Assembly (NCBI GenBank): GCA_903922465.1
Contig: CAIXTV010000182.1
Span: forward strand, 1 to 38,147
Reading direction: 5' to 3'
Source: an uncultured bacterium
Lineage (GTDB): Bacteria > Bacteroidota > Bacteroidia > Bacteroidales > CAIXTV01
Length of the DNA: 38,147 bases
In this document: positions 8,931-38,147 of the stretch, piece after piece
How the letters are laid out: each line of letters begins with the position of its first letter
How positions within the stretch are numbered: the first letter of the stretch is position 1
The notes under the pieces: model-generated
What the model was told of the DNA's origin: nothing
Databases searched by the model: none
The model's input: the letters and a program-made list of their open reading frames with translations, nothing else
Translations under genes and position numbers: made by a program

Positions 8931-9043
8931 TGAAGGTGGATTATAGGTAATCGGTTAGGGGTATTTGGTATTTGTTTTGGAATAAGTAAAGGTTAATGAA
9001 TTGATATTGTATGCTTAATGTTGTTCGTGTATTAGTGAATCGT

Positions 9044-9270
9044 GTAGTTAACCGTGCGAAAACTCTAGTTAACCGTGCGAAAACTGTAGTTAACCGTGCG
9101 AAAACTGTAGTTAACCGCGCGAAAACTGTAGTTAACCGTGCGAAAACTGTAGTTAACCGTGCGAAAACTGTAGTTAACCGCGCGAAAACTGTAGTTAACC
9201 GTGCGAAAACTGTAGTTAACCGCGCGAAAACTGTAGTTAACCGCGCGAAAACTGTAGTTAACCGCGCGAA
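9044..9270. repeat. Tandem array, 21-bp unit, 11 copies (array 1)
   Basis: Units start every 21 bp from 9044 to 9254. The core is AGTTAACCGTGCGAAAACT, preceded by GT (CT once). Each unit contains the palindrome GTTAAC. Units differ mainly at one position (CCGTGCG or CCGCGCG), and these variants are mixed along the array. The last unit decays after GCGAA. The array lies in the 468-nt gap between the convergent ends of the helicase gene and an antitoxin-like gene. It holds open frames on both strands (144 and 69 residues) because 21 is a multiple of three and the unit has no stop. I do not regard these as genes. The rest of the gap shows nothing else firm. Confidence 0.95.
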
Positions 9271-14913: not shown

Positions 14914-15208
14914 CGATTTGTCAAAAGGAAGCCCGATTTGTCAAAAGGAAGCTCGATTTGTCAAAAGGAAGCTCGATTTGTCAAAAGGAAGCCCAATTTG
15001 TCAAAAGGAAGCTCGATTTGTCAAAAGGAAGCCCGATTTGTCAAAAGGAAGCTCGATTTGTCAAAAGGAAGCTCGATTTGTCAAAAGGAAGCTCGATTTG
15101 TCAAAAGGAAGCTCGATTTGTCAAAAGGAAGCCCGATTTGTCAAAAGGAAGCCCGATTTGTCAAAAGGAAGCCCGATTTGTCAAAAGGAAGCCCAATTTG
15201 TCAAAAGG
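14914..15208. repeat. Tandem array, 20-bp unit, 15 copies (array 2)
   Basis: TCAAAAGG recurs exactly every 20 bp from 14921 to 15201. The unit is CGATTTGTCAAAAGGAAGCY, with single C/T and G/A variants. It contains the dyad TTTG-T-CAAA. The last unit runs into AGGGGTTTC. Because 20 is not a multiple of three, all three forward frames carry the same shifted 20-residue peptide repeat without stops, giving three overlapping false open frames. The array fills the middle of the 782-nt divergent gap between the helical protein gene and the YyaL-like gene. Flanks at 14815-14913 and 15209-15306 are also open in one frame, but I see no family signature there. Confidence 0.95.
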
Positions 15209-22058: not shown

Positions 22059-22158
22059 CTAATATTATAATAGATGTAATGAATTCGGAAAATATTTCTT
22101 TTAAAACCAAATTTGACCTAACTCGATAAATTTCTTCCAGAATTAGAAATATTTCTAG

Positions 22159-22578
22159 GAGTAATATAAATTATAATTAGGGTAATATAAATAGCAATTA
22201 GGGAAATGATGATTGATTTTTCAGAAAAACAGATCATTTTTTACCAAATGCAAGTGCTTTTCACAAAAAGTCAATTATTTTTCAGGAAAAATCAATAGGA
22301 ATAAGGATAAAATGAATTACCCTAATGGAATTATAAATAATAATTATGGTATTATAAATAGTCTATGGAAATTCCCACTTGTTTTTCTGGAAATCCAAAG
22401 AGAATTACTTAAAAATATAATTTGATTTCTCGAAAAGCTAAATAGATTTCTAGTAATAACAAGAAGACTTCCGATAAACATTTTAGATTTTCCAAAAAAA
22501 AAGATAGAATTTCTGAATAAAAAGCCAGAATTTCCGGGAAAATAAGTAGATTTTCGAGAAAATAAATTCAGATATTTT
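22159..22578. repeat. Degenerate tandem array, about 21-bp unit, about 20 copies (array 3)
   Basis: Cut every 21 bp from 22159, the sequence lines up into about 20 related units. Examples are those starting 22180 (GGGTAATATAAATAGC), 22285 (GGAAAAATCAATAGG), 22432 (GAAAAGCTAAATAGATTTC) and 22537 (GGAAAATAAGTAGATTTTC). One 20-nt unit and one 22-nt unit (22474, 22494) compensate each other. Junctions of the better units read TTTCnnGAAA, a dyad. Units are much more diverged than in arrays 1, 2 and 4. The array dominates the 847-nt gap between the divergent TonB_C and arylsulfotransferase genes. The remaining parts hold the promoter at 22830 and a short open frame at 22686. Confidence 0.75.
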
Positions 22579-22829: not shown

Positions 22830-22861
22830 TTGCATTAAATTTACATTAAGTTTTATATTTG
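22830..22861 (+). promoter_or_regulatory. Bacteroidota promoter for the arylsulfotransferase-CotH-VTC operon
   Basis: TTG at 22830-22832 and TATATTTG at 22854-22861, a perfect TAnnTTTG, are spaced by 21 nt. The first gene starts 25 nt downstream at 22887. This is the only clear promoter before a run of ten tightly packed genes, so it probably drives most of them. Confidence 0.75.
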
Positions 22862-22886: not shown

Positions 22887-25088
22887 ATGAAAAAAAGCAG
22901 TTTAATGAAATTTCAATTCATAGTTTTAATGACTTTATTTTGCTCATTCCATTCTACAGCTCAGCAATGGGGTTTATATACTCTGTATGCTACAAAAAAC
23001 GGGACTCAAGCATTTTTAATCGACACAGCCGACACACCTGTTGTTTATAAGACATGGACTTTTCTCTCGACAAAAAAATCGGGTTATTCTGCATATTTAG
23101 TTCCAGGCGACACTTTAGTAAGGTCGTTTTCCAACTCGGGAAATGTATTGTCGGGGGGTGGGATAACAGGTGGAGTTCAAAAAGTTACTTGGAACGGAAC
23201 CGTTGTTTGGGATTTTGTGTATTCTTCTTCAACCTATTGCATTCATCACGACATTTGCCCCATGCCCAACGGAAATGTTCTGATGATTTCATACGATGTG
23301 CGAACAGGAACCGAAGCAACTTTAGCCGGTTCATCTTCAAGTTCAACATTTTACTCTGAAAAACTTATCGAAGTGCATCCCACCGGACCAACAACAGGAA
23401 CTATTGTATGGGAATGGAAACTTTGGGATCATATGTGTCAGAATTACGATGCCACAAAAAATAATTATGTAACTTCTATTGTCAATAACCCACAATTATT
23501 AAACATCAACTATAATGGTAGCGGTTCACTACCAGACAGGTATCATATGAACGGAGTTGATTACAACCCAACTCTTGACCAGATAGTAGTGAGCATGCAT
23601 TTCATGAATTCTGTTTTTATAATTGACCATAGCACTACTACAGCTCAAGCTGCAGGGCACACCGGAGGTAATTCAGGTAAAGGTGGTGATTTTTTATATC
23701 GCTGGGGAAATCCTGCTTCTTATGGAGTAACAGGAACCACAGCTAACTTTGTCACAGTTCATGACGCACATTGGGTTCCAAGCGACAACCCTAACTATCC
23801 GAACTATTTAGCAGGATATAACAATCAGGGCGGAACAGGTGGGAAAACCGCAATTGATATTTGGAATCCGCCTTATAATGGGTACAACTACACACTCACT
23901 GTGGGACAAGCATACACTCCTGCAGCATATGCCTATAGATTTAACTCCCTCTTCACTGCAACTAACGAAGGTAACTCACAACAACTCCCTAACGGAAACA
24001 TGTTGGTAAACAATGCATTTGGCGCTATTTATGAAGTAAATGCCACGGGGACACAACTCTGGACTAAAGCATCAGCCAACTCATCTCATGCCTATCGATA
24101 TTCGAAATGTTATGTTAGAGGGCCTTTATCCAGTGCAACAGCTACTGCAACTCAAATTCTTTCAGGCACAAGTGACACTTTAAAAGCAACTGCCATTTCC
24201 CAAACAGAAACTAGCCCTACTTACACATATGCATGGTCATCATTGCCAGCCGGATTCACTTCAAATTTGCAAAACCCCGTAATTAGCCCAACAACTTCAG
24301 CTACCTACACAGTAACCATAACCAACACAGCATTATCTTGCTCAAGTTCAGCCAATGTAGTGGTAAACGTTAATGGCAGCAGCATTCTCTCGACAAGTTC
24401 AACCGCAAACCCACAAACTATTTGTGATGGCGATCAGGTACAACTGAATTCTAATCCATCAGGTGGAAATAATTATACCTATCAATGGTCATCTTTACCA
24501 AGTGGATTCGCATCTCCAGACCAAAATCCAACTATCAATCCTAGTTCAACAACAACCTATTATGTAACCGTATACAGCGGCACCGATTCAGCAAGTTCTT
24601 CAGTCAGCGTAACCGTAAATCCTATTCCTTCTCTACCCATCATTAGTCAAAACGGGAACATACTTTCGTCAAGCTCAACTACCGGGAATCAATGGTATTA
24701 CAACAGCACTATTATTTCGGGTGCCATCAGCCAAAATCACACAGCTCTTAACGCAGGAAACTACCAGGTGAAAGTTACTAATGCATACAGTTGCACTTCA
24801 ATGTCGTCAATATACACTTTTAATCCTGACAACATTAATGATGTCGACAAACAAAGCAACATTTTAATTTACCCGAATCCTGTTAATGACATGTTGCATA
24901 TAGAAGGCATCACTGACAACAATAAACCCATTGAAGTATGCCTGTATAATTCTATAGGAAAATGTATTTACAAAGCAAGTAATACTAATTCAATAAACAT
25001 GTCAAATTTTGAAGCTGGGCTTTATTTTATATCAATAAGCTTTAACAACGAAACTAATTATAACAAAAAAGTCTTTTTATTTAAGTAA
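22887..25088 (+). CDS. Secreted arylsulfotransferase-like protein with T9SS domain (paralog 1)
   Basis: A 733-residue secreted protein. Signal peptide about 1-25 (STAQ) precedes an ASST-type beta-propeller (about 27-415). It shows YCIHHDICPMPNGNVL (His120, His121), YHMNGVDYNPTLDQI (His220), FLYRWGNP and VHDAHWVP (His292, His295), which carry the His residues expected of the arylsulfotransferase family. These enzymes move sulfate between phenolic compounds through a sulfo-His, without PAPS. Two Ig/PKD-like domains follow (about 417-600, each with YAWSSLPAGF or YQWSSLPSGF), then a T9SS type A domain (IYPNPVNDM ... NFEAGLYFISI). The true acceptor is unknown. A second paralog begins 12 nt downstream. 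A later ATG (residue 7) would also keep a signal peptide. Confidence 0.87.
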   Translation: MKKSSLMKFQFIVLMTLFCSFHSTAQQWGLYTLYATKNGTQAFLIDTADTPVVYKTWTFLSTKKSGYSAYLVPGDTLVRSFSNSGNVLSGGGITGGVQKVTWNGTVVWDFVYSSSTYCIHHDICPMPNGNVLMISYDVRTGTEATLAGSSSSSTFYSEKLIEVHPTGPTTGTIVWEWKLWDHMCQNYDATKNNYVTSIVNNPQLLNINYNGSGSLPDRYHMNGVDYNPTLDQIVVSMHFMNSVFIIDHSTTTAQAAGHTGGNSGKGGDFLYRWGNPASYGVTGTTANFVTVHDAHWVPSDNPNYPNYLAGYNNQGGTGGKTAIDIWNPPYNGYNYTLTVGQAYTPAAYAYRFNSLFTATNEGNSQQLPNGNMLVNNAFGAIYEVNATGTQLWTKASANSSHAYRYSKCYVRGPLSSATATATQILSGTSDTLKATAISQTETSPTYTYAWSSLPAGFTSNLQNPVISPTTSATYTVTITNTALSCSSSANVVVNVNGSSILSTSSTANPQTICDGDQVQLNSNPSGGNNYTYQWSSLPSGFASPDQNPTINPSSTTTYYVTVYSGTDSASSSVSVTVNPIPSLPIISQNGNILSSSSTTGNQWYYNSTIISGAISQNHTALNAGNYQVKVTNAYSCTSMSSIYTFNPDNINDVDKQSNILIYPNPVNDMLHIEGITDNNKPIEVCLYNSIGKCIYKASNTNSINMSNFEAGLYFISISFNNETNYNKKVFLFK

Positions 25089-25100
25089 ACCAAAACCACT

Positions 25101-26819
25101 ATGAAAAAACTCACTTTCATACTTATCTGCATATTTTGGGCCATTTCGGTTGAAGCACAACAATGGGGCTTATACACTTTATATGCTCCCATCAACACCA
25201 CTCAAACCTATCTGATAGATACAAACGGGACCACCTTTAAAACATGGACCCATAGTTCTACTCAAAAAAACGGCTTCTCTGTTTATTTAACCCGTGGTGA
25301 CACCCTCATTAGACCCATAGCCCTCACTGGGACAACTCTTACTGGTGGAGGCATGACAGGAGAAGTTCAGAAAGTTACCTGGAATGGCACAGTAGTGTGG
25401 GATTTTGTTTATTCATCCACTACCTATTGTTTACATCACGATGTATGCCCAATGCCTAACGGTAACGTTCTAATGACATGTTATGAAGTAAAATCAGGCA
25501 CAGAAGCCACCGCTGCTGGATGCTCTCAAAATATCACTATTTGGTCAGAGAAACTTATCGAAGTGCAACCAACAGGCGCCACAACCGGAACTATAGTTTG
25601 GGAATGGCATCTATGGGACCATTTGTGCCAAACTGTAAATTCAGCCCTTCCAAATTATGTAAGTTCAGTTTCTCAAAATCCACAATTAATGAATATTAAT
25701 TATAATACTTCGAAAGACTGGATTCACATGAACGGAATTGATTACAATCCAACCCTCGACCAAATTACTTTCAGTTCGCGCACAATGAACGAAATATATG
25801 TTATTGATCACAGCACAACTACTGCAGAGGCAGCTTCACATTCGGGTGGGAACTCTGGAAAAGGAGGCGACTTTCTTTATCGCTGGGGAAATCCTGTTGC
25901 CTATGGTGTAACCGGAACAAAAGTGTTTAATGTTGTGCATGATGCCCATTGGATTTCAAACGATAATATAAAATACCCTAATTATTTATGTGGATTTAAT
26001 AATGGTGGGGCAACAGGGGGAAAATCATGTATTGATATAATCAGCCCACCTTATAGTGGTTATGAATATACTTACACAGCTGGGGCAGCAATGCTTCCAT
26101 CTACTTATGCCTACAGACATTCAAGTACCTATACTTCAAACTCCAACGGAGCTTCACAAGAACTTCCAAATGGCAATATACTAATTTGTATATCTACTGC
26201 AGGTTATTTATATGAAATAGATTCGATTGGAACCATACTTTGGTCGAAAACCGTTACTGGTTCACCTGCTAATGCACTTCGTTATGATTTATGTTCTGTA
26301 AGAGGCCCTATTGCAACAGCAACAGCCTCTTCAAATCTAATTACAGCAGGAACACCCGTAACCTTAAACTCATCAGCTGCTTCAGTCACTGAAACCAACC
26401 CTGCTTATACATACTCATGGACATCTGTTCCTGCAGGATTTACTTCTACTTCATCCAACCCAACTTTCACCCCTTCTGCAAATACCATTTATTCGGTAAC
26501 AATTACCGATACCACCATTGGATGTTCGACTACTGCTTCAGTAAGTGTCAACATTGCTACCGGTTTAAATGATCAGGATGAAAGTAAAAACTTTAAAATA
26601 TATCCAAATCCCACCAAAGGGATCATAAACCTAGAATGGATTGTTGCTGAAAATAAAAATTACGAAATAAGCATACTCGATTCATACGGAAAACTTATAT
26701 TGAAAGACGAAAATGTTAAATCGATAGATATTTCCGAATATAACAATGGAATTTACATATTGAGTATAAAACCTGAATATCAAAATGTTATTAATAATAA
26801 AATAATCTTAATCAAATAA
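25101..26819 (+). CDS. Secreted arylsulfotransferase-like protein with T9SS domain (paralog 2)
   Basis: A 572-residue tandem paralog of the preceding gene. Signal peptide 1-19 (VEAQ) leads to the same propeller, with QQWGLYTLYAP, YCLHHDVCPMPNGNVLM (His112, His113), WIHMNGIDYNPTLDQI, FLYRWGNP and VHDAHWIS. The candidate catalytic histidines are all kept. It has one Ig-like domain (YTYSWTSVPAGF) where paralog 1 has two, which explains the shorter length. It ends with a T9SS domain (IYPNPTKGIINL ... NNGIYILSI). The pair probably arose by local duplication, with loss or gain of one Ig domain. It lies 12 nt after paralog 1 and 3 nt before the propeller gene, in one operon. Confidence 0.87.
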   Translation: MKKLTFILICIFWAISVEAQQWGLYTLYAPINTTQTYLIDTNGTTFKTWTHSSTQKNGFSVYLTRGDTLIRPIALTGTTLTGGGMTGEVQKVTWNGTVVWDFVYSSTTYCLHHDVCPMPNGNVLMTCYEVKSGTEATAAGCSQNITIWSEKLIEVQPTGATTGTIVWEWHLWDHLCQTVNSALPNYVSSVSQNPQLMNINYNTSKDWIHMNGIDYNPTLDQITFSSRTMNEIYVIDHSTTTAEAASHSGGNSGKGGDFLYRWGNPVAYGVTGTKVFNVVHDAHWISNDNIKYPNYLCGFNNGGATGGKSCIDIISPPYSGYEYTYTAGAAMLPSTYAYRHSSTYTSNSNGASQELPNGNILICISTAGYLYEIDSIGTILWSKTVTGSPANALRYDLCSVRGPIATATASSNLITAGTPVTLNSSAASVTETNPAYTYSWTSVPAGFTSTSSNPTFTPSANTIYSVTITDTTIGCSTTASVSVNIATGLNDQDESKNFKIYPNPTKGIINLEWIVAENKNYEISILDSYGKLILKDENVKSIDISEYNNGIYILSIKPEYQNVINNKIILIK

Positions 26820-26822
26820 ACA

Positions 26823-28046
26823 ATGAAAGCAAAAACACTTTACGCCACGATTATAAGTATTATACTGATGGCTGCGACCTTTAACTCAATGGCACAAACT
26901 TTCACAAATTATTCAACCACAAACGGCCTACCCGATAATTTCTGTGTTGGCGGAATAGCAGTTGATACTAATAACAATGTGTGGGTAGGAACTGCAGCCG
27001 GAATCGCCAAATTTGATGGAACTTCCTGGTTATCTTTAACCACAACCCAAGGACTTGTAGATAATTACACCAACTGCATTGCGGTTGATAAAAACAATAA
27101 TATTTGGGTTGGCACTAATATGGGGATTAGTAAATTCAACGGGACTACATTCACCACATACACCATAGCTAATGGCTTAATTGACAATGGAGTAAAATAC
27201 ATTAATGTGGATATGAATAATAACCTTTGGATTGGCACTGATGTAGGAGTTTCAAAATACAACGGAAGCACATTCACTAATTATACTGTTTCCGATGGTT
27301 TACCAACCAATGTAATTACTTATATTACGTCTGACACATTGAATAACAAATGGTTTGCAACTCAAATGGGAGGCATTTCAAAATATAATAACGCTACATT
27401 CACCACAATTTCAACAATAACCGTAGACAGTTTATTGGACAACAACACATTTGCAATTGCAGTTGATAAATTCGAAAACAAATGGATTGGCACCTGGATG
27501 GGAATTACCAAGATTAATGCTGCAGGCAATTGGGTTGCTAATTACCGAACTATCGATGGCATGTATAACGATTACGTTAGAGATCTTAAGTTTGATTCTA
27601 AGGGTAATTTATGGATAGGTTTATTTGCCGATTATAATCTCGACGGAGGAATCTCCCGTTTTAACGGAACCAATTGGATTTCATACACAACAGCTGACGG
27701 CTTAGCCGACAAACAAGTTATTAGACTTGCGGTAGATAAGAATGATGACATTTGGATTGCAACCGGCAATGGAGTATCAAAATTAACAAGTCCTTCGGCT
27801 ATTTCCGTTAACAATCAGGAAAGAATAAGTGTTTACCCAAATCCAGTTTCTGATTATTTGTTTATCCAACTAAAAAATCACACAACTCAATTTACTATTT
27901 CTGATATTACCGGCAAAACAATTTCTCATCACATTATTTCAGAAAACTCGAACAAAATAGATGTGAGCAATTTATCACCTGGAGTCTATTTGCTACAAAT
28001 TATTGGGAAAACTGAAACATCCTCCGTTAAATTTGTAAAACAATAA
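26823..28046 (+). CDS. Secreted two-component-regulator-type propeller protein with T9SS domain
   Basis: A 407-residue protein. Signal peptide 1-24 (SMAQ) is followed by about seven propeller repeats between residues 28 and 320. Each has the pattern DxNNNxWVGTxxGIxKFDGTxW; examples are NNVWVGTAAGIAKFDGT, NNIWVGTNMGISKFNGT, NNLWIGTDVGVSKYNGS and DDIWIATGNGVSKL. These are Reg_prop blades, normally the sensor part of hybrid two-component proteins. Here they stand alone and secreted, ending in a T9SS domain (VYPNPVSDYLFIQL ... LSPGVYLLQII). The role may be ligand or glycan binding outside the cell; no kinase domain is attached. It begins 3 nt after the arylsulfotransferase paralog 2. Confidence 0.88.
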   Translation: MKAKTLYATIISIILMAATFNSMAQTFTNYSTTNGLPDNFCVGGIAVDTNNNVWVGTAAGIAKFDGTSWLSLTTTQGLVDNYTNCIAVDKNNNIWVGTNMGISKFNGTTFTTYTIANGLIDNGVKYINVDMNNNLWIGTDVGVSKYNGSTFTNYTVSDGLPTNVITYITSDTLNNKWFATQMGGISKYNNATFTTISTITVDSLLDNNTFAIAVDKFENKWIGTWMGITKINAAGNWVANYRTIDGMYNDYVRDLKFDSKGNLWIGLFADYNLDGGISRFNGTNWISYTTADGLADKQVIRLAVDKNDDIWIATGNGVSKLTSPSAISVNNQERISVYPNPVSDYLFIQLKNHTTQFTISDITGKTISHHIISENSNKIDVSNLSPGVYLLQIIGKTETSSVKFVKQ

Positions 28047-28082
28047 TATCATTTCACTCCACATTTCATCAGAGTTTTTAAT

Positions 28083-30368
28083 TTGAAAAATCAACATTAT
28101 TTCTTAACAGTCATCTTCTCTATATTAATGAGTGTGAATGCTATTTCTCAAGATAGTTTTTACGACATTCAACATATCAGCGAGATAAGACTTAATTTCA
28201 CTCAAACTAATTGGGATGCTACTTTAGATAGCCTCTTCCTAAATTACGGAGAAGATGGTCGTTTAATTGGCAATATTTCCATTGATGGGAATTTACTTAA
28301 AAATGTAGGAGTCAGATACAAAGGCTATAGCTCCTGGAATGTTGATGATAAAAAGAGCCCATTTAATGTTGAATTGGAATACACCCAAAATAACCGAAAT
28401 TATTTGGGCTATACTAAATTAAAACTGAGCAACGTCATCCACGATCCTTCTTTCATACGCGAAGTTTTATCTTACGAAATTGCCAGAAAATATATGCCTG
28501 CATCAAAGGCTAATTTTGCGAATATCTATGTTAACGACACTTTGCTCGGATTATACACTAATGTTGAATCGGTTGACAAAATTTTTATCGGAAAACATTT
28601 TAGCTCATCCGGCAATAGCTTCTTTAAAGGAGCTCCTGAAAATCTAATATATCCATTTGGTCAAAATGCAAATCTCGCATATACTCACGGAACTGATTCG
28701 AGTGGTTATATGCCATACTATAAGCTGGAGTCAGACCTTTATGGCTGGAAAGATTTATTGCAATTAATTTACACTTTAAATGTTGACACCACACATATCC
28801 CAGAAATCCTGAATGTAGACAGAGCTTTATGGATGCATGCTTTTAATTATGTTCTACTAAATCTGGATAGTTATATTGGTTATTCGCAAAACTATTACCT
28901 TTACAGGGATGATAACGGACAGTTTAACACTATTCCCTGGGATTTCAATATGTCGTTTGGAAGTTTCAGACACTCTGATGGCACTATGCTGAATTTAACA
29001 ATTGCAAAAATGAAACAGCTTAGTCCTTTGCAGATCTTAAACACAACCCCTTTTACTCCTCGCCCTCTAATAAAAAATCTTTTGCAAAATCCTACTTACA
29101 AGAGAATGTATCTTGCACATATGCGAACAATTATTGATGAAAATTTCCGCAACAATGAGTACTATATAAGAGGCCAAATCATTCAAACATTAATTGATTC
29201 TTCTGTTAAAAATGATACCAATAAATTTTATCCTTATGCAGACTTCCAAAACAATTTAAATAGTGACGTTGGAACTACGGCGGATCAATATCCCGGAATT
29301 AAAAGCTTAATGGATGCACGTATTAGTTATCTTGACACTTTCCCTGGTTTTAGTGGGGCCCCTATGATTACGGCTATACAACACACACCTCTTCATCCTA
29401 AATTAAATAATGATTTATGGATAAATGCAACTATTCTGTCATCTGTATCACAAATATTATCTTACCGCTTTAACACTAATGGTCTTTTCACCTCTACCCT
29501 GATGTATGACGATGGAAACCATCAGGATGGGATTGCAGGCGATAATATATATGGTGCAAAAATTATCTTGTCAGGAAAAACCATTCAATATTACATTTAT
29601 GCTGAGAATGATTCGGCAGGTAGGTTTTCTCCTGAAAGGGCAGCCTATGAGTTTTTAAGTATTCAACCCGGAATTAGCCCAAGTGATTTTGCTATTAATG
29701 AGTTCATGGCAACTCCTCAAACTGTTGCTTCAAACCCTAATGGAAATTTCGAAAATTGGATTGAGTTTATTAACACAACTAACGAAAAAATGAATCTTAA
29801 AGACGTTTATTTATCAAATGATAAAAACAACCTCTTAAAATGGCAATTTCCCGACACTACTCTTAACCCAAAAGCATATCTAATTGTTTGGGCAGATAAT
29901 ACAACTTCACAAAATGGCATTCACGCTAACTTCAAACTTTCGGAAAATGGAGGGCAGTTTTTTGTTACTAATGCAGACTTAGCTCCAATTGATAATGTCA
30001 CTTACTTAACTCAAGTAAGCGGCATGACGACTGGGCGATTCCCGAATGGCAGTGGTCCATTTGTAAATATGCAGCCTACATTTTCCAAATGCAACAGCAT
30101 GATTACTACTGATAAATCTGTTTCCATTTTCCCTAACCCTGCATTCGGGAAGGTATATCTTGAAGTATGGAATCAATTTAATCCTTTTACATTTGAAATC
30201 TATAGTGCTAACGGACAAATTATGAAAACAGAATATTTTTCATCTGGGGTGGAAGAATTTTCTTTCACAACAAAAGAAATTGATATTAGCAATTTTCAAA
30301 AAGGAGTTTACATTTTAAAAATCTCAATTAAAGATACTACATTTACCAAAAAATTAATCGTACTCTAA
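28083..30368 (+). CDS. Secreted CotH-type kinase with lamin-tail domain and T9SS signal
   Basis: A 761-residue secreted protein. Signal peptide about 1-22 (NAISQ) precedes a CotH kinase domain (about 30-320). It has VRYKGYSSW (Lys80), KLKLSN, REVLSYEIARKY, NLDSYIGYSQN (Asp262) and FNTIPWDFNMSFG (Asp287), the acidic residues expected for catalysis. CotH proteins are Fam20C-like atypical kinases; the best known phosphorylates spore coat proteins. A lamin-tail (LTD) domain lies at about 540-660 (NEFMATPQTV, NWIEFIN, YLIVWADN), then a T9SS domain (IFPNPAFGK ... FQKGVYILKI). The start is TTG at 28083; no ATG precedes the signal. In many genomes CotH genes neighbour VTC and DUF4956 genes, as here. 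A secreted kinase needs a phosphate donor outside the cytosol, which is notable. Confidence 0.9.
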   Translation: MKNQHYFLTVIFSILMSVNAISQDSFYDIQHISEIRLNFTQTNWDATLDSLFLNYGEDGRLIGNISIDGNLLKNVGVRYKGYSSWNVDDKKSPFNVELEYTQNNRNYLGYTKLKLSNVIHDPSFIREVLSYEIARKYMPASKANFANIYVNDTLLGLYTNVESVDKIFIGKHFSSSGNSFFKGAPENLIYPFGQNANLAYTHGTDSSGYMPYYKLESDLYGWKDLLQLIYTLNVDTTHIPEILNVDRALWMHAFNYVLLNLDSYIGYSQNYYLYRDDNGQFNTIPWDFNMSFGSFRHSDGTMLNLTIAKMKQLSPLQILNTTPFTPRPLIKNLLQNPTYKRMYLAHMRTIIDENFRNNEYYIRGQIIQTLIDSSVKNDTNKFYPYADFQNNLNSDVGTTADQYPGIKSLMDARISYLDTFPGFSGAPMITAIQHTPLHPKLNNDLWINATILSSVSQILSYRFNTNGLFTSTLMYDDGNHQDGIAGDNIYGAKIILSGKTIQYYIYAENDSAGRFSPERAAYEFLSIQPGISPSDFAINEFMATPQTVASNPNGNFENWIEFINTTNEKMNLKDVYLSNDKNNLLKWQFPDTTLNPKAYLIVWADNTTSQNGIHANFKLSENGGQFFVTNADLAPIDNVTYLTQVSGMTTGRFPNGSGPFVNMQPTFSKCNSMITTDKSVSIFPNPAFGKVYLEVWNQFNPFTFEIYSANGQIMKTEYFSSGVEEFSFTTKEIDISNFQKGVYILKISIKDTTFTKKLIVL

Positions 30369-30400
30369 AATTCCAAATTATGATTAAACAAATTAACATT

Positions 30401-30805
30401 ATGAAGAAAAACATTTTCAAAACTATTTCGATTATTGTGCTGAGTATTATATTGTTCTCATGCTCAAAAGAACCCGGACAAGGCGGAAGTTCAACAATTA
30501 AAGGTAAGGTTTATGCAAAGTATTATGATAAAACCTTCACCGTGCTTCAGGGCGAAGGCTATATGCCGGAACTTGATGTGTACATCATTTATGGAAACGA
30601 TGCTTCATTTAGTGATCGCACACGAACAAATTATGATGGCATTTACGAATTCAAATATCTTAGAAAAGGAGATTATAGGGTTTATGTCTATTCAAAAGAC
30701 TCTACTTTAACCATCCCCTCTGGACTCTATCCTGTAATTGCTGATGTGAAAATCACCGAAAATGATCAAACCGTTGAAGTTCCCAATTTAAACATCTTTC
30801 AATAA
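30401..30805 (+). CDS. Lipoprotein with carboxypeptidase-regulatory-like domain
   Basis: A 134-residue lipoprotein. The signal MKKNIFKTISIIVLSIILFSC has Cys21 in the lipobox LFSC. The mature part is a small beta-sandwich (STIKGKVYAKYYDKT, DGIYEFKYLRKGDYRVYVYS, DVKITENDQTVEVPNL), the transthyretin-like or CarboxypepD_reg pattern. I chose the second ATG at 30401, seven codons after an ATG at 30380, as the better signal-peptide start; both give the lipobox. It is probably in the outer-membrane inner leaflet or on the surface. It lies between CotH and the YwqK-like gene. No enzyme motif is seen. Confidence 0.8.
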   Translation: MKKNIFKTISIIVLSIILFSCSKEPGQGGSSTIKGKVYAKYYDKTFTVLQGEGYMPELDVYIIYGNDASFSDRTRTNYDGIYEFKYLRKGDYRVYVYSKDSTLTIPSGLYPVIADVKITENDQTVEVPNLNIFQ

Positions 30806-30816
30806 TTAACTTCTTT

Positions 30817-31311
30817 ATGAAAGTCAAACATTCAATATTATTTCTTTTTTTATTGTTTATTGCATTAAACACTTCGGCTCAGAGCAAAAAAGACATTAAG
30901 AACAATAAAATTGCCTCTGAAACTTCAATGATTACAACATCGGAAGATGGAAAAGAGGTGACTTATAAAGATTCCTATACGGTATACGATAAAAACGGAT
31001 GTGTGACCGAACAGTTAGATTATGCAAAAGATGGCACTGTTAAAAGAAAAGAAATCAACAAATACAACTCAAAGAAAGATAAACTTGAAGAAACCATTTG
31101 GAACTATAAAGATAAAACCTATAAGAAAACTTCATATGCTTATGATTTGAATGGCCTCAGAGTTGGAGAAATTGAATATGATGAAAATGGAAAAACAGTA
31201 AAGCAATGTCTTATCTTTTACAATAGCAAAGGTTTTAAAACCGAAAAAAGGACTTATGATGGAAATAAAAAACTTATTTCCACTAAAAAATTCAACTATA
31301 CGAAATTTTGA
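30817..31311 (+). CDS. Secreted YwqK/MORN-like repeat protein
   Basis: A 164-residue protein with a signal peptide (1-22, NTSAQ) and three to four imperfect repeats in the mature part: YDKNGCVTEQLDYAKDGT, YDLNGLRVGEIEYDENGK, YNSKGFKTEKRTYDGNKK. The YxxNGxxxxxxxYxxxG spacing is the MORN/YwqK-type or RHS-like antitoxin-like strand repeat. It lacks a T9SS domain and a lipobox and is thus probably periplasmic. There is no catalytic motif, and function is unknown. It starts 11 nt after the lipoprotein stop and ends 10 nt before the polyphosphate polymerase ATG. Confidence 0.75.
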   Translation: MKVKHSILFLFLLFIALNTSAQSKKDIKNNKIASETSMITTSEDGKEVTYKDSYTVYDKNGCVTEQLDYAKDGTVKRKEINKYNSKKDKLEETIWNYKDKTYKKTSYAYDLNGLRVGEIEYDENGKTVKQCLIFYNSKGFKTEKRTYDGNKKLISTKKFNYTKF

Positions 31312-31321
31312 TATTTACAAA

Positions 31322-32077
31322 ATGGATGTAATTGAAAATATACTTAACACATTTCAACCTATCACCTTAGAAGAGATGGATAGCGTGCGATTAATGAACC
31401 GCACCGATACTAAATATCTTTTCAATTATAGACATTTAGCTGATATTTTAGAGCAACTTACTGAGGATTTCTATGTATTAGATGTTGACGGAGTAAAAAT
31501 CAACCCTTACGAAACCGTTTATTACGACACTGATGATTTTTACTTTTATCATCAACACCAAAGAGGAAAAATGAATCGTTTTAAGGTCAGACTGAGGACA
31601 TATGTTACTTCTAATATTCATTTTTTTGAAATCAAACATAAGAACAATAAAAACCGAACTCTGAAAGTTCGTATTAAAAGAAAAGAACCTAAACTCGACT
31701 TGGGTGAAAAAAGCTCTGCTTTTGTCGAATCGAAAATTAACATGCTTGCTACTTCTCTTTCTCCTAAACTTTGGGCTAATTATTCGCGTATTACGTTAGT
31801 TAATAAGCACCAGCCTGAACGTTTGACTATCGATACTCAATTATTTTATAAAAACAACACTTCCGAAAAAGCTTTTCCCGAAATTGTTATTGCTGAACTT
31901 AAACAAGATAAAAACAGCAAATCAGCTTTTTCACAACTCATGCACAAACTTCACATTTCAAACACTTCCATTAGTAAATATTGTTTTGGCGTTCTTTTCC
32001 TATATGAAAACGTACGTATTAATAACTTCAAACCTAAACTACTCACCTTTAATAAAATTTGTAATGACACCCTATAA
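31322..32077 (+). CDS. VTC-domain polyphosphate polymerase
   Basis: A 251-residue cytosolic VTC (vacuolar transporter chaperone) domain protein. Key residues visible are MNRTDTKYLF (Lys31), YYDTDDFYFYH, RFKVRLRTY (Arg86, Lys88, Arg90), FFEIKHKN (Glu103, Lys105), VRIKRKEP, RLTIDTQL and EIVIAELKQ. These form the basic and acidic tunnel of VTC/triphosphate-tunnel enzymes, which in yeast make polyphosphate from ATP. In Bacteroidota and Firmicutes such genes often sit with CotH and DUF4956 genes. I chose the ATG at 31322 because upstream frame overlap with the YwqK-like gene has no protein-like features. It overlaps the start of the next gene by 14 nt. Confidence 0.88.
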   Translation: MDVIENILNTFQPITLEEMDSVRLMNRTDTKYLFNYRHLADILEQLTEDFYVLDVDGVKINPYETVYYDTDDFYFYHQHQRGKMNRFKVRLRTYVTSNIHFFEIKHKNNKNRTLKVRIKRKEPKLDLGEKSSAFVESKINMLATSLSPKLWANYSRITLVNKHQPERLTIDTQLFYKNNTSEKAFPEIVIAELKQDKNSKSAFSQLMHKLHISNTSISKYCFGVLFLYENVRINNFKPKLLTFNKICNDTL

Positions 32078-32870
32078 ATTTCACATCCTTCTTGTTCTGT
32101 TTTTATTATTCAGTGCTCCCGTGAAAGTTATTTTCGCTCAGGAGTCTTTGTCCGGAGTCCAAACTGAAATTGTTCCTACTGATGAAACCCTAACAACAGA
32201 CAAAAAGAAAGATAAAAAAAAGAACAAAGAAACCGAGAAAGATCAACTCGAAATTAGTGAAACTTTCATTGTTAGTTTGCTTATTAATCTGGCAACTGTT
32301 TTCATTATTATTATGTTTATTTATTATCCAAACTATCATAATCAGGAAATCATTTTCACTTACTTCCTTTTCAATATCGCCATTTTCCTGCTTACGTTTC
32401 TGCTGAATAAAATTAAAATATCGATGGGGGCTGCCTTTGGCTTGTTTGCAGTCTTCTCCATGTTAAGATATCGAACCGAGGGCATCTCAATGAAAGATAT
32501 GACCTATCTGTTTATTGTGATTGCGGTGGGTTTGATAAGTGCAGTTCAGCTCGAATATTACGAACTTGGCATCATTAGTGGCATTCTAATTATTGCTACT
32601 TTCTTATTAGATGGTAATGTTTTGATTAAACGTGAGTATTCGAAACAAATTCGTTATGAAAACATTGAATTAATTAAACCCGATCAGAAAGAAAAGCTGA
32701 TTGAAGACTTAAAAAACAGAACCGGTTTAGATATTCATAGAGTTTCAATAGTTAAGATTGATTTCTTAAGAGACATGGCTAATATTACCGTGTATTACTA
32801 TCTACCAAAGCATAGTAAAGATGGTTATAGTAGCTCTCAAATGGAATACACACCAAACGACATTGATTAA
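32064..32870 (+). CDS. DUF4956 membrane protein
   Basis: A 268-residue protein. It has an N-terminal hydrophobic signal-like segment (1-26), a Lys-rich stretch (about 46-60), then about four transmembrane helices between residues 68 and 185. The family core is GAAFGLFAVFSMLRYRTEGI (122-141) followed by SMKDMTYLFIVIAVGLI, the best conserved part of DUF4956. A cytosolic C-terminal alpha/beta domain (about 190-268) contains DIHRVSIVKIDFLRDMAN. It overlaps the VTC gene by 14 nt, which indicates coupled translation and cooperation. It may help move or retain polyphosphate across the membrane, but that is inference from neighbourhood only. I chose the ATG at 32064 because it starts a proper signal; an in-frame open region upstream lies within the VTC gene. 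Confidence 0.87.
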   Translation: MTPYKFHILLVLFLLFSAPVKVIFAQESLSGVQTEIVPTDETLTTDKKKDKKKNKETEKDQLEISETFIVSLLINLATVFIIIMFIYYPNYHNQEIIFTYFLFNIAIFLLTFLLNKIKISMGAAFGLFAVFSMLRYRTEGISMKDMTYLFIVIAVGLISAVQLEYYELGIISGILIIATFLLDGNVLIKREYSKQIRYENIELIKPDQKEKLIEDLKNRTGLDIHRVSIVKIDFLRDMANITVYYYLPKHSKDGYSSSQMEYTPNDID

Positions 32871-32874
32871 GCTC

Positions 32875-33582
32875 ATGTATAATAAAATTAAAATCTTATT
32901 TCTTTTCATTTTGCTCCTTTCTAGCTTATGCATTAAAGCACAAGTTACCAATGATGCAGGTTTGTGGACAACCCTCAGCATAGAAAAAGAATTCACGAAA
33001 AAGTTTTCGGTTTCTGTTGACGAAGAAATTCGTTTAAAAGAAAACTTCACCCAATTGAATCTTCTTTATACTAATCTTGGGCTCAATTACAAATTCACTA
33101 AAGCCTTCAAAGTTTCGCTAACCTATCGTATGATAGAAAAATACATGCCCGACGATTGGTTGAGTTTCCGTCATCGTTTGATGCTTGACATCTCTTATAA
33201 ACAAAAAATAAAATCTTTTTCATTATCTTACCGTAGTCGTTTTCAGTCGGAAGTGCAACAGTATTATTCAACTGAGTTTGGAAAAATCCCCGAATGGTAT
33301 TGGCGTCATAAGTTCGAATTAAAATATAATCTGAACAAGTTTTCTCCTTACCTTGGCACCGAATTGCGTTATCAATTTACCAATCCTCGAAGCGTTGAAA
33401 ATGATTATGGCTGGCATCGCATTAGAATGTTTGCTGGCACAGATTATAAAATCGACTCCCGCAATACCGTAGGTTTGTACTACCTCATTCAACAAGAATA
33501 CGATGTGAAAAATCCTTCAAACCTTTATATTGTAGGACTTGAATACTCTCTTACTTTACCCTGTAAACAAGAAAAAAAATAA
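32875..33582 (+). CDS. DUF2490 outer-membrane beta-barrel protein
   Basis: A 235-residue protein with signal peptide 1-22 (CIKAQ) and a barrel-like mature part: TNDAGLWTTLSIEKEF, EEIRLKENFTQLN, YTNLGLNYKFTKAFKVSLTY, WRHKFELKYN, YLGTELRYQF, YDVKNPSNLYIVGLEYSLTL. The alternating beta-strand pattern and the N-terminal LW..LSIEKEF plus DEEIRLKEN motif match DUF2490. Family members are thought to be small outer-membrane barrels. It is 4 nt after DUF4956 and one base before the sensor kinase. Position in the operon suggests a port or anchor for the surface system, unproven. Start at 32875; an upstream in-frame extension would lie in the DUF4956 gene. Confidence 0.85.
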   Translation: MYNKIKILFLFILLLSSLCIKAQVTNDAGLWTTLSIEKEFTKKFSVSVDEEIRLKENFTQLNLLYTNLGLNYKFTKAFKVSLTYRMIEKYMPDDWLSFRHRLMLDISYKQKIKSFSLSYRSRFQSEVQQYYSTEFGKIPEWYWRHKFELKYNLNKFSPYLGTELRYQFTNPRSVENDYGWHRIRMFAGTDYKIDSRNTVGLYYLIQQEYDVKNPSNLYIVGLEYSLTLPCKQEKK

Positions 33583-33583
33583 A

Positions 33584-34657
33584 TTGAAATTCAGCTCTAT
33601 CATAAGTAAAAGAATTGTTCTATTTCTGCATGTTATCATTTGGATACTTTTACTAATTATACCGGCATTTATTTTACAATACAACAGTAATTTCGATCAG
33701 CATATGCTGATAATTACTTATTTGCAGATTATTTCTTATGCCATTATTTTCTATTTACATTACTTAATCCTCATTCCTAAACTGTTTTTCGGCAATAAGA
33801 AAATATTATATTTTGCTATTAGTGTAGTGCTTATTTTCGCTTTAGGCTTTGCTACTGAAATGCTGAGTCATCCACCGGAAATGGAAAACATGAATCATCC
33901 TTTTTCAGAAGAAGCTCATCATCCACATCACGAGCGTCCTGATTTTCCGTCTCAGAAAAATCTACCCGTCTATAATTTCTTTCTCACATCCTTTTTAGTA
34001 ACAGGCTTTAGCTTGGGACTTAGGTTTTCCGATAAATTATTGCACAACGAAAAACTTCGTAAGGAAACTGAAAACGAAAAGATAAACTCAGAATTGGTTT
34101 TCCTCAAAAGCCAAATGAATCCTCATTTCTTCTTTAATACTTTAAACAATATTTATGCTTTGGTTAGCACCAAATCAGACGATGCTCCCTTTGCAATACT
34201 TAAACTTTCGAAGTTGATGCGATATATGCTTTACGAAACCCAAAAAGGCAACACTCTTTTAGGTCAGGAAATAGAGTTTATGAAAAATTATTTCGACTTA
34301 GTGAAGTTGCGTTTGAGTAATAAAGTTATCGTAAACATTCATTTCCCCGATTCTTATGCCTACATGAGCATTCCGCCTCTATTGTTCATCCCTTTTATCG
34401 AGAATGCATTTAAACATGGCGTGAGCTACAAGGAAGCTTCCACCATTAACATTTCGCTGAAAGTTGAGCAAAACAGCATACATTTCATTTGCGTCAATTC
34501 TATATTCCAGAAAGAAAATGTTAGCCTTGACGACTCCGGAATTGGGCTCGAAAACATTAAAAAACGCCTTGCTTTATTATTTCCCGGCAAGCATAGTTTA
34601 AATATCAGCAAAACCGACAATTTGTTTTCGGTTAACCTTAATATTGAAATGGTATAA
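33584..34657 (+). CDS. LytS-type sensor histidine kinase with His-rich periplasmic loop
   Basis: A 357-residue inner-membrane kinase. Four transmembrane segments lie at about 10-31, 41-64, 74-94 and 127-147. Between the third and fourth is a loop (about 95-126) rich in His and Met: SHPPEMENMNHPF and EEAHHPHHERPDF, with six histidines. By topology it is periplasmic. The cytosolic part has KSQMNPHFFFNTLNNIYAL with phosphoacceptor His181, and an N-box IPPLLFIPFIENAFKHG, then GIGLENIKKRL. This is the His_kinase (PF06580-type) architecture that pairs with LytTR regulators. The start is TTG at 33584, one base after the DUF2490 stop, because a later ATG would delete the first helix. The His-rich loop could bind metal ions; this is inference. 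The LytTR regulator follows 125 nt later. Confidence 0.88.
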   Translation: MKFSSIISKRIVLFLHVIIWILLLIIPAFILQYNSNFDQHMLIITYLQIISYAIIFYLHYLILIPKLFFGNKKILYFAISVVLIFALGFATEMLSHPPEMENMNHPFSEEAHHPHHERPDFPSQKNLPVYNFFLTSFLVTGFSLGLRFSDKLLHNEKLRKETENEKINSELVFLKSQMNPHFFFNTLNNIYALVSTKSDDAPFAILKLSKLMRYMLYETQKGNTLLGQEIEFMKNYFDLVKLRLSNKVIVNIHFPDSYAYMSIPPLLFIPFIENAFKHGVSYKEASTINISLKVEQNSIHFICVNSIFQKENVSLDDSGIGLENIKKRLALLFPGKHSLNISKTDNLFSVNLNIEMV

Positions 34658-34782
34658 AATTTCACACATAACTAAAGTCCTAAGTTCATAGAATAACTAA
34701 TAAGGGAAAAGGTAAAACCTATAAATAAAATAAATCGGGGCCTCCCCTTTCATTAAATTCATTCACTCAACACGAGAATAAA

Positions 34783-35496
34783 ATGCTAAAAGTAATTGCA
34801 ATTGACGATGAACCCTTAGCTTTGCAACTTGTTACAAGTTACATCAAGCAAACTCCTTTTCTTGAACTCGTCGAGAGTTTCGATAGTCCGACCAACACCA
34901 TTGAATATCTCGAAAATGAACATATCGATTTAATCTTTCTAGACATTCAAATGCCCGACCTTAGCGGAACTGAATTTGCACGCATGATAAAGACCGGACC
35001 TAAAATAATTTTCACTACTGCTCACGCTAAATATGCAATTGAGGGATATAAACTCGATGCGGTAGATTATTTATTGAAGCCTTTTAGCTATAATGAGTTT
35101 CTGTTAGCTGCTCAAAAAGCACAACGTCAAATCGAGCTCGAAAACAAATCGGTTGCACAACTCTATACCAACAATGAATTTTTATTCATTAAATCAGATT
35201 ATAAGATACGCCGAATTAATTTCAACGACATCATGTATATCGAAGGGCAGAAAGAATATGTAAAAATCTTTGTCAAGAACGAAGAAATCCCTATTCAATC
35301 AATTATTTCGATGAAAACTCTTGAAAGTAAGCTTCCCGAAACAAAATTTATGCGTGTGCACCGTTCCTTTATCGTAAATCTCGATTGCGTGACCACAGTA
35401 GAACGCTCTCGCATTGTTTTCGGCAAAGTTTATATCCCCATCACTGACCAATATAAAGATAACTTCCAGGATTTTTTGAATAGGAATTTCATATAG
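34783..35496 (+). CDS. LytTR response regulator
   Basis: A 237-residue regulator. The receiver domain (1-120) has Asp8 and Asp9 in AIDDEPLA, phosphoacceptor Asp54 in FLDIQMPDLSG, the Thr switch in IIFTTAH and Lys99 in LLKPFS. The LytTR DNA-binding domain (about 135-237) shows LFIKSDYKIRRINFNDIMYIEGQ and FMRVHRSFIVNL. This pairs with the LytS-type kinase just upstream, as in many Bacteroidota AgrA/LytR systems. It likely binds direct repeats before target genes. No target site could be proven, although the operon promoter at 22830 is one candidate. The 125-nt gap before it shows no clear promoter; a GGGG-CCT-CCCC hairpin lies near 34738. Confidence 0.92.
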   Translation: MLKVIAIDDEPLALQLVTSYIKQTPFLELVESFDSPTNTIEYLENEHIDLIFLDIQMPDLSGTEFARMIKTGPKIIFTTAHAKYAIEGYKLDAVDYLLKPFSYNEFLLAAQKAQRQIELENKSVAQLYTNNEFLFIKSDYKIRRINFNDIMYIEGQKEYVKIFVKNEEIPIQSIISMKTLESKLPETKFMRVHRSFIVNLDCVTTVERSRIVFGKVYIPITDQYKDNFQDFLNRNFI

Positions 35497-35757: not shown

Positions 35758-35988
35758 ACATGAATCAGGTTGATTCATATATGAATCAGAGTGATTCATA
35801 TCGAAATCAGGTTGATTCGTATATGAATCAATTTAATTCATGTTGAAAACAGTTTATTTCGTATATGAATCAATTTAATTCATGTTGAAAACAGTTTATT
35901 TCATATATGAATAAATTTAATTCATGTTGAAAACAGTTTAATTCATATATGAAACAGTTTAATTCATATATGAATTGGAGTGATTCAT
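35758..35988. repeat. Tandem array, 21-bp unit, 11 copies (array 4)
   Basis: Eleven consecutive 21-bp units run from 35758 to 35988, with units starting every 21 bp (35779, 35800, 35821 and so on). The main unit is ATATGAATCAATTTAATTCA plus T, nearly palindromic (TGAATCA ... TGATTCA). Units at 35842, 35884 and 35926 are a variant starting GTTGAAAACAGTTTA. These variants alternate with the main form from 35821 to 35946, giving a 42-bp higher-order period. The array lies in the 833-nt gene-free gap between the LytTR gene and the LolD-like gene. The first part of this gap (35497-35757) shows no feature. Confidence 0.95.
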
Positions 35989-37074: not shown

Positions 37075-38147
37075 ATGAAAATTGTAATCGTAGGCACCGG
37101 ATATGTAGGACTCGTTTCCGGAACTTGCTTTGCCGAAGCAGGTATTGATGTTACCTGTGTTGATATTGATAAAACTAAAATTGATAAACTAAACCAGGGA
37201 ATTTCGCCCATCTACGAACCGGGTTTGGATGAAATGATCATTCGCAACATGGAAAAAGGGAAACTCCATTTCACCACCGACTTAACTTCTTGTCTGAACG
37301 AGGTGGAAGTGGTGTTTAGTGCCGTGGGGACTCCTCCCGACGAAGATGGCAGCGCCGATTTGAAATACGTGCTCGATGTTGCCCATACGGTTGGCAAACA
37401 CATGAACAAACACCTGATGATGGTGACCAAAAGCACCGTTCCCGTAGGCACGGCCAATAAAGTAAAGAAAGCCATTGAAGAAGAACTTCAGCTAAGAGGA
37501 CTTAATATCGATTTTGATATTGCTTCCAATCCCGAATTCTTAAAAGAAGGCGATGCCATTTCCGATTTCATGAAACCGGACAGGATAGTAGTGGGCGTGG
37601 AGTCGGAACGCGCTCAGGAATTGATGAGCAAACTCTATAAACCCTTTACCCTGAATGGTCATCCCATCATTTTCATGGATGTCCCTTCAGCCGAAATGAC
37701 AAAATATGTTGCCAATTCGATGCTGGCAACCAAAATCAGTTTCATGAACGACATTGCCAACCTCTGCGAAATCATAGGTGCCGATGTCAACATGGTTCGT
37801 AAAGGCATAGGCAGCGATTCGCGCATTGGGAATAAATTTATTTATCCCGGAGTAGGCTATGGCGGCTCCTGTTTCCCTAAGGATGTAAAAGCTCTCATAA
37901 AAACTGCTGGCGAAAATGGTTATAGCTTAAGAGTATTAAAATCGGTAGAAGAAGTGAACGACGATCAAAAGTCGGTTCTGTTCAACAAGCTACACAACTA
38001 TTATATAGGCGATTTACAAGGCAAAACCATTGCCATCTGGGGATTATCATTTAAACCCAACACCGACGATATGCGCGAAGCCCCTTCGCTGGTGATTATT
38101 GATAAACTGCTGCAACATGGCTGCAAAGTAATAGCCTACGACCCTGT
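37075..38147 (+). CDS. ugd: UDP-glucose 6-dehydrogenase (3' end cut by window)
   Basis: The visible 357 residues are an almost complete UDP-glucose/GDP-mannose dehydrogenase. The N-terminal NAD-binding Rossmann domain has [17 protein letters not shown] (7-23), VDID and VGTPPDEDG. Next come [20 protein letters not shown] and PDRIVVG, then the dimer helix with [20 protein letters not shown]. The catalytic cysteine is Cys266 in [10 protein letters not shown]. The C-terminal domain begins at about 325 ([23 protein letters not shown]) and runs off the window at residue 357. The enzyme oxidises UDP-glucose to UDP-glucuronate with two NAD+, for capsular and surface polysaccharides. The gene is separated from the LolD gene by 91 nt with its own -7 element. 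Confidence 0.95.

Follow-up and report, generated by a model that had tools for sequence, protein, structure and literature searches.

A recurrent gene module that places arylsulfotransferase-type proteins beside CotH, VTC and DUF4956 in Bacteroidales and other bacteria

The closest described relatives of the system presented here are accessory gene sets of Gram-positive bacteria. Their Pel polysaccharide loci carry contiguous genes for CotH, a polyphosphate polymerase and DUF4956 (-DUF4832), and the only function proposed for this set is a regulatory role for CotH (PMC7112168). Likewise, the NELoc-2 locus of C. perfringens holds CotH and VTC-domain genes together (PMC2879425). We analysed a stretch of 38,147 nucleotides from an uncultured Bacteroidales bacterium (assembly GCA_903922465.1, contig CAIXTV010000182.1), called the window below. 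It is an entire contig of a genome of 312 contigs and 5.02 Mb. At positions 22887-35496 it presents a set of 11 co-directional genes on the + strand, in which arylsulfotransferase-type proteins (ASST) stand beside CotH, VTC and DUF4956.

Compared with the Pel-linked set, the likeness consists of CotH, a VTC-domain protein and DUF4956 in one set, although a lipoprotein and a small protein are interposed here after CotH. The window locus has neither pel genes (none among the scanned flanking open reading frames, ORFs, of the window) nor DUF4832, and its envelope is Gram-negative. It adds ASSTs tailed for the type IX secretion system (T9SS), a propeller or carbohydrate-binding module (CBM), a lamin-tail domain (LTD), the lipoprotein, the small secreted protein, DUF2490 and a LytS/LytTR pair. 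We found no earlier description, in the open-access literature, of an ASST combined with CotH, T9SS, DUF2490 or DUF4956. So, the ASST-containing system with its T9SS tails and distinct ASST clade appears new, while the triad of CotH, VTC and DUF4956 is already known, as the original prediction had stated for other bacteria. The composition, order, recurrence and co-inheritance of the module are established, as are its kept active sites and T9SS tails. The features are the following.

22830..22861, + strand: candidate promoter of the Bacteroidota type, TTG-N21-TATATTTG, from a pattern scan, about 25 nt upstream of the first ATG
22887..25088, + strand: ASST1, predicted secreted arylsulfotransferase-type propeller, independent of 3'-phosphoadenosine 5'-phosphosulfate (PAPS), with Ig-like repeats and a T9SS tail (PF05935 E 6.8e-14; Por_Secre_tail 3.3e-12)
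25101..26819, + strand: ASST2, second arylsulfotransferase-type propeller, T9SS tail (PF05935 E 9.5e-19)
26823..28046, + strand: Reg_prop beta-propeller, T9SS tail (PF07494 E 6.9e-22)
28083..30368, + strand: CotH atypical kinase domain, LTD and T9SS tail, TTG start (PF08757 6.2e-45; PF00932 1.1e-11)
30398..30805, + strand: small beta-sandwich-like lipoprotein with an LFSC lipobox (weak SdrD_B/CarboxypepD_reg matches)
30817..31311, + strand: small secreted protein between lipoprotein and VTC, conserved (relatives adjoin VTC)
31322..32077, + strand: VTC-domain polyphosphate polymerase, predicted cytosolic, no transmembrane (TM) segment (PF09359 7.2e-30)
32064..32870, + strand: DUF4956, putative inner-membrane partner (PF16316 2.7e-51)
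32875..33582, + strand: DUF2490, candidate outer-membrane beta-barrel (PF10677 6.3e-26)
33584..34657, + strand: LytS-type sensor histidine kinase (PF06580 5e-24; start uncertain, 33539 or 33584)
34783..35496, + strand: LytTR response regulator (PF00072 2.3e-22; PF04397 2.9e-19)

The ORF list and the Pfam and NCBIfam searches agree with the original prediction in the eleven co-directional genes and their families. The spacing agrees as well: gaps of 3-36 nt (12, 3 and 36 nt among them) or overlaps, with 14 nt shared by VTC and DUF4956 and 125 nt ahead of the LytTR gene. Inspection corrected the start sites of VTC (31322), DUF4956 (32064) and DUF2490 (32875); that of the kinase is probably the TTG at 33584. 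The promoter expected at 22830 was located at 22830-22861, by the general definition of the Bacteroidota-type motif.

A second promoter-like motif lies at 28003-28035, immediately upstream of CotH. It would favour the explanation that in this strain the genes adjoin by accident or make up two operons. However, a comparable motif precedes only 1 of 31 CotH genes of complete loci, so it is not conserved, and we rejected a separate CotH promoter. The recurrence of the set speaks in the same direction. The VTC search covered 296 phylum genomes and 295 order genomes, and the latter 295 were also searched for ASST and CotH. Of these order genomes, 13 have an ASST no more than 15 kb away from VTC, where 0.69 would be expected (P ~7e-13). 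Together with 28 distinct complete loci, this refutes accident at the level of the gene neighbourhood, and we hold it scarcely credible. A linkage restricted to the strain, the outcome that the original prediction had named as fatal to it, thus fails.

The recurrent, tightly spaced module spans distant families and several phyla. The VTC neighbourhoods (up to 20 kb, n=80) were labelled with profiles made from the window genes. In these 80 loci and the window, DUF4956 adjoins VTC in all but one; DUF2490 is present in 58, the lipoprotein in 32, the small secreted protein in 32, CotH in 28 and ASST in 14. At the level of whole genomes, CotH is present in 122 of the 143 genomes with VTC and in 62 of the 152 without it (odds ratio 8.4, P 7e-16), adjacent or not, in a test that treats genomes as independent and ignores relatedness. 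We also scanned an ASST alignment over a collection of 84,980 species and used the best 80 loci, which are not a census. Among them, CotH lies within 5 genes of ASST in 48, where at most about 7 would be expected even if each genome is generously credited with 21 copies of CotH, and VTC lies within 12 genes in 25. Among the close relatives searched, no further member of the window's own family turned up.

The 28 distinct loci hold ASST, CotH-LTD, VTC and DUF4956, with mean pairwise identities of 0.42-0.49. Their gene distances are correlated (Mantel r 0.36-0.84), and none of 5000 permutations was as high. Most often the genes run from ASST through a propeller or CBM, CotH, the lipoprotein, the small secreted protein, VTC and DUF4956 to DUF2490. 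Median gaps are 7 nt from ASST to the middle gene and 7 nt from there to CotH, then 20, 6, 0, -14 and -1 nt. This constant spacing across such divergence argues for one transcription unit. In an Aureispira metagenome-assembled genome (L241), DUF4956 precedes VTC and the propeller is placed after CotH. Kinase-LytTR pairs are present in 11 of the 28 complete loci, and sometimes the pair precedes ASST. The LytS/LytTR pair is an optional part of the module. So, of the joining that was claimed as new in the original prediction, that of the ASSTs, the propeller and DUF2490 has no earlier description that we found, but the two-component system is not the dedicated one it had described.

The classical ASSTs with solved structures are E. 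coli AssT (3ELQ/3ETS) and Streptomyces Cpz4 (9KF4/9KF6). In E. coli (EcAST), His436 is sulfated and His252, His356, Asn358 and Arg374 assist (PMC13426309). The window ASSTs share the propeller fold and the sulfo-histidine pocket. They differ in being only ~17-18% identical, in lacking the N-terminal beta-sandwich domain, in the T9SS tail, in an Arg374 that is often His, and in their link to CotH. Their PF05935 scores are 52.1 bits (ASST1) and 68.1 bits (ASST2), against a cut-off of 24.2. Direct searches of the ASST2 and VTC sequences against the PDB gave nothing useful; profiles and a bridging sequence were required. For ASST the bridge was L142 (1e-54 against 3ELQ). By this mapping, H280, H113, H209 and N211 of ASST2 correspond to EcAST His436, His252, His356 and Asn358. 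All four are invariant across 16 relatives and also across 33 in a further alignment, where the numbering is shifted by 19. The equivalents of H252, H356, N358 and H436 are also kept in ASST1. The AlphaFold model of ASST2 (pLDDT 91.9) has Cpz4 as its nearest fold (9kf6, Z 30.9, 18% identity), followed by 3ets of E. coli (Z 26.5), and no other propeller exceeds 22.8. Judged by alignment and model, the ASST retains the sulfotransferase fold and the sulfo-histidine pocket, and sulfate transfer itself is predicted.

In a tree of 110 ASSTs (a quick IQ-TREE search, where a few long branches leave the outer placements unsure), one clade of 79 rows has an SH-aLRT of 100. CotH and/or VTC adjoin 63 of these 79: both in 35, CotH in 25 and VTC in 3, with neither in 16, some near contig ends. 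Classical ASSTs outside the clade stand beside neither. Conservation reaches further for the ASST-CotH pair than for the ASST-VTC pair. Ignavibacteria, Calditrichaeota and Electryonea supply early branches of the clade, so the link to CotH looks ancestral. A second tandem ASST pair, away from CotH and VTC, occurs in three genomes (L288, which is C78:40001-60000 of the window's own genome, L289 and L290).

A clade so distinct and far from classical ASSTs might no longer consist of sulfotransferases. Its sulfo-histidine pocket could now serve phosphate chemistry and take phosphoryl from exported polyphosphate by way of a phospho-histidine, or the propeller could merely bind a polyanion. The exchange of Arg374 for His in most members and the missing beta-sandwich domain would fit this, as would a neighbouring gene expected to make polyphosphate. 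Nevertheless, the pocket histidines and the Asn are all invariant, and the nearest fold is that of the sulfotransferase Cpz4. We regard this explanation as improbable.

The VTC protein was compared with the yeast VTC complex (Vtc4 core, 3G3Q), which it matches in the catalytic domain and the active-site positions. It differs from the eukaryotic complex by having no SPX and no fused TM domain, by a separate DUF4956 and by its linkage to secreted enzymes. The PF09359 match scores 104.7 bits (cut-off 23) and covers nearly all of the ~252 amino acids. The top solved structure for its profile is Vtc4 (3g3q, E 1.4e-5). Residues R29, K33, R92, R94, E105, K107, R158, D173, E194 and K196 (counted from 31316) align with VTC4 and are invariant in 25 sequences. 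VTC keeps a polymerase-type active site, which predicts the synthesis of polyphosphate from ATP. A bacterial VTC domain might instead make another product, such as a different polyphosphorylated polymer or a nucleotide, and the system would not be polyphosphate-based. The similarity to VTC4 is only remote, and PMC4641920 presents the tunnel-enzyme superfamily as functionally diverse. However, the aligned and invariant active-site positions are of the polymerase type, and we find such a product quite improbable. The host genome also has a separate ordinary PPK1; because of it, VTC would be dispensable for ordinary storage polyphosphate.

DUF4956 adjoins VTC in 153 of 155 distinct loci. It is predicted to have an N-terminal signal/TM segment, about 5 helices and a C-terminal alpha/beta domain (model pLDDT 77.8). 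The VTC-DUF4956 pair is accompanied by DUF2490 in 75 of the 155 loci and by a HlyD-like adaptor in 47, never by both. The adaptor, a periplasmic protein of ~356 amino acids, lies directly upstream of VTC-DUF4956 (L284, L285, L005 and others, 47 distinct loci); HlyD_3 was above its cut-off in 1 of 5 such proteins tested. The VTC subtype with this adaptor likewise has neighbouring ASST and CotH (L284, L285). A barrel in the outer membrane and an adaptor in the periplasm thus seem to replace each other, and from this mutual exclusivity we infer an export step that crosses the envelope.

The CotH protein scores 154.5 bits with PF08757 (cut-off 23.8) and matches the spore coat kinase CotH (PDB 5jd9) at E 3.3e-7. 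It shares the CotH domain with 5JD9, adds a T9SS tail and the LTD, and is predicted to be extracellular. D262, N270 and D287 are invariant in 15 relatives. In the alignment with 5jd9, D287 falls on the Asp of PWD, and the other Asp is 3 residues off. D262 is the putative counterpart of the catalytic Asp. Elsewhere in the same genome (C297:6526-7386), a CotH frame is broken by three stop codons.

ASST1, ASST2, the propeller and CotH all end in a T9SS sorting domain (PF18962/TIGR04183, Por_Secre_tail), and the host genome encodes the T9SS (SprA match of 2639 bits). The gene after ASST encodes a propeller in 26 cases, an X25/CBM48-like T9SS protein in 25, CotH in 9 and another ASST in 9, counted over the order sample and the best ASST loci, which share some genomes. 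A CBM thus often replaces the propeller and, elsewhere, the HlyD-like adaptor replaces DUF2490; neither was part of the original prediction. The NCBIfam match of the window propeller to PorZ scores 61 bits where the cut-off is 260; we rejected PorZ and took the match as one to Reg_prop repeats. Cthe_2159 carbohydrate-binding proteins (L101:7825-9651 and L089:6387-8177) adjoin VTC-DUF4956-DUF2490 loci without ASST. These proteins and the CBM-like ones in the propeller slot suggest a glycan.

We propose a mechanism whose steps are given by decreasing security. First, VTC would synthesise polyphosphate from ATP. Second, the chain may cross the inner membrane through DUF4956, and DUF2490 or the adaptor would take it to the periplasm or surface. 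Third, the T9SS would put ASST, the propeller or CBM, and CotH on the cell surface. Fourth, the CBM or propeller would hold a glycan or glycoprotein of the surface, which CotH would phosphorylate and ASST would sulfate; the sulfation would follow a sulfo-histidine ping-pong, with an aryl or other sulfate ester as donor. Fifth, CotH might draw its phosphoryl groups from the exported polyphosphate, directly or via nucleotides, where ATP is scarce. In some lineages LytS/LytTR would control the system. We hold the chain as far as the fourth step tentatively, at rather less than an even chance. The fifth step, in which exported polyphosphate replaces ATP for a secreted CotH beside a PAPS-independent ASST, so that the surface becomes polyanionic with neither ATP nor PAPS, is doubtful. 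The group-transfer system of the original prediction is thus borne out in its recurrent module, its ASST fold and pocket and its kept VTC active site; the actual transfer, the target and the polyphosphate donor stay conjectural.

Several observations weigh against this mechanism. A CotH match is missing in 52 of the 80 VTC neighbourhoods and ASST in 66, which means that the VTC core also functions where they are absent. ASST is likewise often paired with CotH at loci that lack VTC (25 tree rows, though some contigs end early). At the Arg374 position, ASST2 has Arg (SSR), and ASST1 has His, as do most relatives. The enzyme depends on a sulfate ester as donor, and nothing in the operon supplies one. 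Bacterial VTC-domain proteins are only distantly related to VTC4, as the profile E value shows. DUF4956 has no recognisable solved relative (Foldseek gave none under E 0.06, and VIA-align a Z of at most 6.2), so its channel role is a guess. Finally, DUF2490 and the adaptor track two VTC subtypes, and shared descent may contribute to their exclusivity.

The separate occurrence of the two halves would also suit a matrix-production regulon. Here, the polyphosphate exported by VTC-DUF4956-DUF2490 would itself serve as a polyanion for structure or storage, and CotH and ASST would act on other proteins or glycans of the surface with their own donors. They would share an operon only since all parts are needed during biofilm or capsule formation. 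The Gram-positive set of CotH, polyphosphate polymerase and DUF4956 that adjoins Pel polysaccharide genes is consistent with it (PMC7112168). On the other hand, the association of VTC and CotH across genomes, even unlinked, and the fixed gene order suggest a closer coupling. This regulon seems to us fairly unlikely.

If the proposed phosphorylation and sulfation were true, it would be a further bacterial way of building sulfated and phosphorylated surface polymers. It would give a role to bacterial ASSTs, whose natural substrates are unknown (PMC13426309), and to the widespread VTC-DUF4956 pair. It also makes testable the phosphate source of a kinase that is exported to where ATP is absent.

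The genes that flank the module encode an EamA transporter, a TonB-type protein and an ABC ATPase, with no evident relation to it, and the more distant genes show none either. The same holds for an open frame downstream of the ATPase (37075-38145) that leaves the contig end and resembles UDP-glucose/GDP-mannose dehydrogenases, which would yield an acidic sugar precursor. AT-rich tandem repeats of ~21 bp are present on both sides of the operon, at 22147-22555 and 35760-35975 (42-bp unit in the downstream one). Near-perfect tandem arrays also occur at 9043-9270 (21 bp, 10.9 copies) and 14914-15208 (20 bp, 14.8 copies), and they yield spurious repetitive ORFs.

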